Below are positions 60,379 through 61,439 of a stretch of DNA of 64,000 nt, piece after piece (the first letter of the stretch is position 1; each line of letters starts with the position of its first letter). The notes below the pieces were generated by a model. That model was given only the letters and a program-made list of their open reading frames with translations. It made no database searches and was not told the DNA's origin. The translations under genes were made by a program, and so were the position numbers. Location of the stretch: the NCBI RefSeq assembly GCF_000835495.1, contig NW_015622548.1, forward strand, positions 1,073,111-1,137,110, written 5' to 3'. The DNA is from Cladophialophora immunda. Lineage: Eukaryota; Ascomycota; Eurotiomycetes; Chaetothyriales; Herpotrichiellaceae.

Positions 60379-60797
60379 TCTTTGCGAGAGTGCTGACTTG
60401 CTTCACACCTGGGACGCGCTTTGGGAGTTGGGTGTGATTGACCTTGAAGAGAAGATGGAGCGCAGCCACAGCGACAAATCTACCTGGAAAACCAACGACT
60501 GCTGCCCCAGGACGGGTTTTGCTGGCTGCTTCAGACACGGAGATCAAACCTGGGGCTAGGTAGTAGCAGAGAGTCTTTACAGTCCTTCCCTCATGGTACG
60601 GGCACTCAGTGTAGAATAGATTGCTCGGGCAGGAATCGGACGCGTGTAGTGTCAGGCCAAAATTCTGCAGGCAGTTTGCGCGTTGCTCTCGGAGCTGTCA
60701 ACTACGGCACAAGGTTCTTGTTCTTCAACTTCTAGAATCCGGGCTCTTCTGGGCTCTTCTCCAAAGTCTTGCACAAGGCAAAGGACAGTGATGAAAA
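60379..60797. other. Short intergenic region between translin and U2 snRNA genes
   Basis: Translin promoter and the 3' flank of the U2 snRNA gene, both on the minus strand. No further gene seen. Confidence 0.5.
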
Positions 60798-60926
60798 GGG
60801 TGTTGTTTGCGTCACAAGGCGGCAGTGTAAGGCCTCGGACACGGTGCAAGAGTCCTCTGTGCAAGCACAGGGAGACCCAAGCGAGGTGCAAAAATAAATT
60901 TAATCAATGTTTGTCACCGTAGTGAC

Positions 60927-60978
60927 CTGGCAACGGTCAGCAGGGGGGAGGATATTCGGATAGATCAGATTCGCTCAC
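60927..60978 (-). other. Intron 2 of the U2 snRNA gene (52 nt)
   Basis: Begins GTGAGCG and ends GTTGCCAG, with a TGCTGAC branch motif close to the acceptor. It lies between stems IIa and IIb. The exon between introns 1 and 2 is only TCTGAAAT (60986-60979). Confidence 0.82.
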
Positions 60979-60986
60979 ATTTCAGA

Positions 60987-61041
60987 CTTCCAAGGTGTCA
61001 GCACAAGTCAAAATGGGATGCAGTTGGGGGGGAGCACTCAC
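60987..61041 (-). other. Intron 1 of the U2 snRNA gene (55 nt)
   Basis: Begins GTGAGTGC and ends TTGGAAG, with a perfect TGCTGAC branch motif 12 nt before the AG. It interrupts the loop of stem IIa right after TTTAATC. None of it aligns with U2. These are the same signals as in the protein-gene introns of this window. Confidence 0.82.
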
Positions 61042-61093
61042 GATTAAACTGAAAAGAACAGATACTACACTTGATCTAAGCCAGTTGGCAAAG

Positions 61094-61149
61094 CTGAGAT
61101 GATGACATTAGCACAGTTGGGTTGTATGGCGAGATTCGATGGTACTCAC
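61094..61149 (-). other. Candidate third intron at the 5' end of the U2 snRNA gene (56 nt)
   Basis: Begins GTGAGTACC, contains TGCTAAT, and ends ATCTCAG. Splicing would join CTCT to CTTTGCC, giving CTCTCTTTGCC, close to the usual fungal U2 5' sequence. Without splicing the RNA could instead start at ATCATCTC (61103). The choice is open. Confidence 0.45.
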
Positions 61150-61439
61150 AGAGCTGAGGAAAGAAAAGGGAAAGAATTGTGCTCAATGAGGAACTGAAGA
61201 GTTTTTAAATGAGTTGCGGAATCCACAACTGGTAGTGGCTTGGCAAATTCATGTCTTGGCAGTGGTAAGCTATTTGGAGGGAACGTCAGGTCTTTGAGTA
61301 TGTCACGGTTCCGCCAAGACCTAGTTGGCATGTGACTATTTTGCAACTGCCTACGACCTTTACCTCGTCGCAGGCTGGCACACTTTCAAATAGGCTCTTC
61401 TCGAGTTCGTATTCATGTTATCTGTGCTCTACACTGTGC

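Follow-up and report, generated by a model that had tools for sequence, protein, structure and literature searches.

An mRNA-type intron has been described in the U2 gene of the basidiomycete Rhodotorula hasegawae (Takahashi et al. 1993, cited in PMC2586383), and introns in the gene for the U6 small nuclear RNA (snRNA) are known from Schizosaccharomyces pombe and other fungi (Tani and Ohshima 1989; Canzler et al. 2016, both cited in PMC5832005). Fungal U3 genes can carry GT-AG introns with an RCTRAC branch site near the 5' end of the RNA; a few of these genes hold two introns, and paralogues with and without an intron occur (Canzler et al. 2017, PMC5832005). According to the same paper, frequent interruption had until then been recorded for no small structured RNAs other than U3 and U6 (PMC5832005). 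No report of introns in the U1 or U2 genes of ascomycetes was found in the full-text literature that we searched, which is a weak negative as many subscription journals lie outside its coverage. The present analysis concerns a U2 gene in a 64,000-nucleotide (nt) stretch of DNA from the filamentous ascomycete Cladophialophora immunda. This whole stretch, hereafter the window, forms the end of contig C8 (C8:1073111-1137110) in an assembly of 42.2 Mb and 39 contigs. We read the element as one of the genome's two U2 snRNA genes, live and carrying three spliceosomal introns, and we put the probability of this reading at roughly 0.84.

A cmscan search of the whole window returned a single Rfam match above its gathering score, namely U2 (RF00004) at 61100-60801 on the minus strand, with 101.4 bits (E = 2.7e-19; gathering score 46). 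The alignment of the unspliced gene covers positions 1-192 of the 192 positions of the model and contains two large insertions. The marks of the U2 family are present, including the GUAGUA core of the region that reads the branch site, a U-run of Sm type that would act as the Sm site, and stems IIa and IIb. The predicted anatomy of the gene is as follows.

61155-60801, minus strand: U2 gene of the window, whole predicted extent.
61150..61155, minus strand: exon 1, AGCTCT, 6 nt, predicted 5' end of U2; the same in both U2 genes of the genome, pairs with the U6 tail and completes stem I.
61094..61149, minus strand: predicted intron 1, 56 nt, GTGAGT...CTAAT (61111-61107)...CAG; its counterpart in the U2 gene on contig C3 has the same position and 60 nt.
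61042..61093, minus strand: exon 2, 52 nt, with stem I, the branch-site-reading region and the 5' side of stem IIa, from the Rfam alignment; identical to the C3 gene.
60987..61041, minus strand: predicted intron 2, 55 nt, GTGAGT...CTGAC (61001-60997)...AAG; absent from the C3 gene, with a single possible placement.
60979..60986, minus strand: exon 3, TCTGAAAT, 8 nt, the 3' side of stem IIa; adjoins its neighbours directly in the C3 gene.
60927..60978, minus strand: predicted intron 3, 52 nt, GTGAGC...CTGAC (60940-60936)...CAG; absent from the C3 gene, with three possible placements, one of them GT-AG.
60801..60926, minus strand: exon 4, ~126 nt, with stem IIb, the Sm site and stems III and IV, from the Rfam alignment and the comparison with C3; its 3' end is approximate.

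All three predicted introns have GT...AG ends and a CTRAY branch site, with the AG lying 10-14 nt past the branch A, and the AAG acceptor of intron 2 is the first AG downstream of its branch site. Splicing around exon 3 would yield TTTAATC-TCTGAAAT-GTCACTACG, and exons 1 and 2 would join as AGCTCT-CTTTGCC. An earlier note on this DNA, made from its letters alone, had claimed a U2 gene at 60798..61103 that is interrupted by two mRNA-type introns with an 8-nt exon between them. The interrupted gene is borne out, since Rfam matches U2 with inserts at the places noted and the paralogue on C3 does without them, and the motifs, the lengths of 55 and 52 nt, the TGCTGAC in both inserts, the AAG and CCAG ends and the exon TCTGAAAT are all as described. 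Its expectation that stems IIa and IIb would form once introns 2 and 3 are removed also held in a local fold. Its interval found the right locus but not the extent of the gene, which reaches upstream to a predicted 61155, and its count of introns was too low: a third, 5' intron had been missed, and the shortest exon is the first one, with 6 nt.

Rfam and a DNA search agree on two U2 genes in the genome, the window copy on C8 and a gene at C3:3065520-3065714 (132.1 bits). The C3 gene runs TTTAATC-TCTGAAAT-G, without the 55-nt and 52-nt inserts, and carries only the 5' intron. The positions of introns 2 and 3 are fixed because the paralogue lacks exactly these inserts. Given the joined sequence, the 55-nt insert can be placed in one way, which is GT...AG, and the 52-nt insert in three ways, one of which is GT...AG. 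This presence and absence between the two genes, together with the GT-AG placement, is the strongest evidence that the 55- and 52-nt inserts are introns. The earlier note had named an intact U2 gene elsewhere in the genome, together with silence of this locus, as a finding that would refute it; half of this applies, since the C3 gene does lack both inserts, yet that gene is not free of introns, as it carries the 5' intron too.

The 5' intron is shared by the two genes. Upstream of the part aligned by Rfam, both read CTTTCCTC-AGCTCT-GTGAGT...CTAAT or CTGAC...CAG-CTTTGCC, and without the intron, which takes up 56 nt in C8 and 60 nt in C3, the U2 5' end becomes AGCUCUCUUUGCC. We infer the exact start at exon 1 from the analogous ...C/ATACTT context of the U1 genes. 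The single U6 gene found (89 bits), which is uninterrupted over its Rfam model, carries in its tail CAAAGAGUGCU, which pairs with AGCUCUCUUUG of the spliced U2 at 10 of 11 places in U2/U6 helix II, at -12.7 kcal/mol. The unspliced U2 junctions pair with the same U6 at -5.4 (C8) and -8.4 (C3) kcal/mol. When every 6-mer was placed before exon 2, 38 of the 4096, AGCTCT counted, paired with U6 at least as well as AGCTCT does. In stem I, a non-standard pair that cmscan flags in both U2 genes becomes U-A after removal of the 5' intron, and the U2 5' end drawn by cmscan, at 61100-61094, is intron sequence on the three-intron reading. The window gene is accordingly described here as having three putative introns and the C3 gene as having one.

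Intron-like signals are common in this DNA. When both strands of the window are searched, a pattern of such signals turns up 15 times, where 20 Markov controls average 9.45. Within the U2 gene it catches only intron 1 and misses intron 2, with its AAG, and intron 3, with its GTGAGC. The case therefore rests on the U2 gene itself and on its paralogue. The mRNA introns compared were two from the window's Fox2 gene (52 and 55 nt), one from actin (52 nt) and one from an actin-related gene (50 nt, its boundaries set by eye); a fifth mRNA junction could be read as 57 or as 61 nt. The four clear introns begin with GTAAGT or GTGGGT, have CTAAT, CTGAC or TTGAC as branch site and end in TAG or CAG, and in length and branch site the predicted U2 introns fit these mRNA introns of the genome. 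Two other origins were considered. Introner repeats were rejected for introns 2 and 3, for which no further copy was found in the genome: together with exon 3 (115 nt) they match only themselves genome-wide at E up to 1, in a search that skips simple repeats and very common words. Self-splicing introns were rejected by reasoning from size, the inserts being just 52-56 nt long.

Comparison of the two copies also bears on whether the window gene is live. The spliced C8 and C3 RNAs are identical over their first 66 nt (66/66) and agree in 173 of 195 columns over the whole RNA, whereas matching columns number 36 of 61 in the shared 5' intron and 26 of 45 in the upstream flank. No decay is seen in the 5' half of the window copy or in its 3' element; stem III is weaker. 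Of the 55 base pairs of the C3 fold, 46 are unchanged in the window copy, 3 are changed on one side and 1 (in stem IIb) on both sides, with pairing kept, although many of the 55 fall in the identical region and are hence uninformative on the function of the window copy. The elements that flank the gene are given below.

60755..60779, minus strand: core of a 3' hairpin element common to U1 and U2 genes, from a pattern search and folds.
61260-61255 and 61244-61239, minus strand: two copies of the motif GCCAAG, a possible promoter element; a third copy stands as CTTGGC at 61318-61313.
61204..61209, minus strand: TATA-like TTTAAA, 54 nt upstream of the predicted start; the C3 U2 gene has TATATAA at -60.

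The hairpin element, GCCTTG..GCAA..TGGAGAAGA, sits 21 and 24 nt downstream of the two U2 genes. Genome-wide its pattern has five matches, behind three U1-like genes and the two U2 genes and nowhere else, and a control pattern has none; since these five genes served to write the pattern, their recovery is by design, and the result is that nothing else matched. Base changes preserve the pairing of the hairpin in some copies. The element is possibly a 3' processing or termination signal of U1 and U2 genes. Upstream, CTTGGC/GCCAAG occurs in 12 copies in the six 200-bp regions that precede the U1 (3), U2 (2) and U3 (1) genes, and in none of the regions upstream of U5 or U6; the background is 60 in 84,541 bases, counted with the two U2 loci among the sampled sequence, and the motif was picked after inspection. 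The window copy seems live because its mature sequence is identical to that of C3 over 66 nt despite a diverged shared intron, and because the 3' element is kept. This suggests that the copy is transcribed, with drift or specialisation in stem III.

The window copy could instead be a pseudogene or be barely expressed, with functional U2 supplied by the C3 gene and the extra inserts tolerated because the copy is unimportant. Several observations lean in this direction. The other U2 gene does without the two inserts and has the higher Rfam score (132.1 against 101.4 bits), and intron 2 ends in AAG where all four clear mRNA introns have YAG. The window copy has lost the remaining 5 of the 55 C3-fold pairs, of which four belong to stem III and one to the foot of stem IV. 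Its stem III still folds, but with the register shifted and with less stability (-16.7 kcal/mol, as compared with -24.8 in C3; the z-scores from single-base shuffles are -1.9 and -4.4). The acceptor of intron 2 and the state of stem III also weigh against a live gene with three introns, as does the fairly stable pairing of U6 with the 5' end of the precursor itself (-10.4 kcal/mol). The whole-molecule minimum-energy fold lacks stem IIa in both copies alike, which is not diagnostic because the C3 copy gives the same alternative pairing. We nevertheless regard a pseudogene as unlikely. Decay is disfavoured by the pattern of conservation between the copies, in which exons are identical beside a diverged intron and upstream flank, the 3' element and the upstream motif are retained, and the inserts are clean GT-AG introns and not random gaps. 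Gene conversion of the exons could partly mimic the identity of the two copies, yet it would have had to skip the introns.

Two further explanations would leave the gene live and change what its inserts are. Large expansions exist in the U2 of budding yeast, and the unspliced window sequence still scores above the Rfam threshold, so the 55- and 52-nt stretches might be expansion segments of the kind seen in some yeast U2 RNAs and persist after maturation. Such segments are very improbable here, as the inserts are located in the loop of stem IIa and at the junction of stems IIa and IIb, the C3 paralogue lacks them, and each contains a 5' splice site, a branch site and an AG that are properly ordered and spaced. 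Stwintrons are known in this group of ascomycetes, and two introns only 8 nt apart in an ascomycete recall them; everything from intron 2 through intron 3, the 8 nt included, would then be removed as one. We give this almost no credence, because the 8 nt are U2 sequence, the 3' side of stem IIa, and are kept between the splice units and contiguous with their neighbours in the C3 gene.

Three U1-like genes (RF00003) were found in the genome, with 43.6, 40.3 and 29.1 bits, all under the gathering score of 69.5. The one on C3 is uninterrupted and begins ATACTTACCTTG. The other two, and the gene for the U3 small nucleolar RNA (snoRNA), appear to be interrupted.

C1:4336854-4336982, minus strand: U1-like gene, ATACTT/GTGCGT...CTAAC...TAG/ACCTTG, with a 63-nt insert that has one placement, GT-AG.
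C8:512098-512243, minus strand: U1-like gene, ATACTT/GTACGT...CTGAC...TAG/ACCTTG, with a 57-nt insert that has one placement, GT-AG.
C1:2159456-2159717, minus strand: U3 snoRNA gene, with an apparent 82-nt 5' intron after GTCGACTTT, from a reading of the sequence.

The first exon of both interrupted U1-like genes is 6 nt long, as in U2. Their inserts fall at AUACUU^ACCUUG and split the sequence that U1 uses to read 5' splice sites. U5, like U6, is uninterrupted over its Rfam model. U4 was not found genome-wide: RF00015 had no matches, which does not show absence, one pattern had none, and a second pattern matched two places, in neither of which Rfam shows a U4. The U4 gene may be missing, diverged or interrupted.

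If the window holds a live U2 gene with three introns, RNA polymerase II would start at ~61155 and the precursor would be capped at AGCUCU. An existing spliceosome would then remove the three introns of 52-56 nt by intron definition, and introns 2 and 3 would probably leave one after the other, because 8 nt leave too little room for the two splice sites of exon 3 to be occupied simultaneously. The joined exons would make a U2 of ~192 nt that, as the pairing seen in the sequence indicates, could form stems I, IIa and IIb and pair with U6 through its 5' end; its 3' end would be set near the hairpin element that U1 and U2 genes share. Since the 5' intron is present in each of the U2 genes, pre-existing U2 would be needed to make new U2; for U1, the gene that has no intron could supply the RNA with no splicing step. 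The idea of a feedback loop gains weight from the fact that both U2 genes and two of the three U1-like genes apparently need splicing. We lean somewhat towards an obligatory, self-referential loop, in which these four genes must be spliced, the supply of U2 is tied to splicing capacity, and a working spliceosome is inherited through the cytoplasm.

If true, the three-intron U2 gene, whose shortest exons measure 6 and 8 nt, would put the recognition of tiny exons to an extreme test, and would do so in an abundant, easily measured RNA. Unspliced U1 should be inactive in reading 5' splice sites, because the intron interrupts the very sequence that reads them, and the U1 introns at AUACUU^ACCUUG might thus form an autoregulatory switch. 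The 5' ends of fungal snRNAs may also be misannotated where a 5'-proximal intron has been aligned as snRNA, as Rfam does in both U2 genes here on the three-intron reading.

Beyond this genome, patterns for the U2 core had no matches in IMG/VR. A U2-like core was seen in three contigs of metagenome-assembled genomes that are labelled bacterial, which we read as probable eukaryotic contamination. Among the proteins encoded in the window, the NAD kinase is 95% identical to a protein of Fonsecaea monophora and 93% identical to one of Cladophialophora psammophila, and the Fox2-type protein has its best named relative in Lithohypha guttulata (71%). The fungus, a relative of the black yeasts, groups with Fonsecaea and Cladophialophora; Fonsecaea is a member of Herpotrichiellaceae (Chaetothyriales, Ascomycota).

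Introns in the genes of spliceosomal RNAs are thus of a known kind, and what is unusual here is that a single U2 gene is predicted to hold three of them, leaving exons as short as 6 and 8 nt, and that U1 appears to have companion introns. The U2 gene of R. hasegawae is said to have one intron, and its U1 and U5 genes reportedly have introns as well. The window gene resembles that U2 gene in carrying an mRNA-type intron, but differs from it in having three, which leave exons of such small size, in belonging to an ascomycete and in having a one-intron paralogue. As with the U6 introns of fungi, a spliceosomal RNA would itself need splicing; unlike in S. pombe and the other fungi concerned, U6 is uninterrupted here over its model, and the introns lie in U1 and U2 instead. 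The likeness to fungal U3 genes consists in 5'-proximal introns and in paralogues that differ in intron content, and the U3 gene of this genome also seems interrupted, by 82 nt; unlike U1 and U2, however, U3 is no part of the spliceosome.
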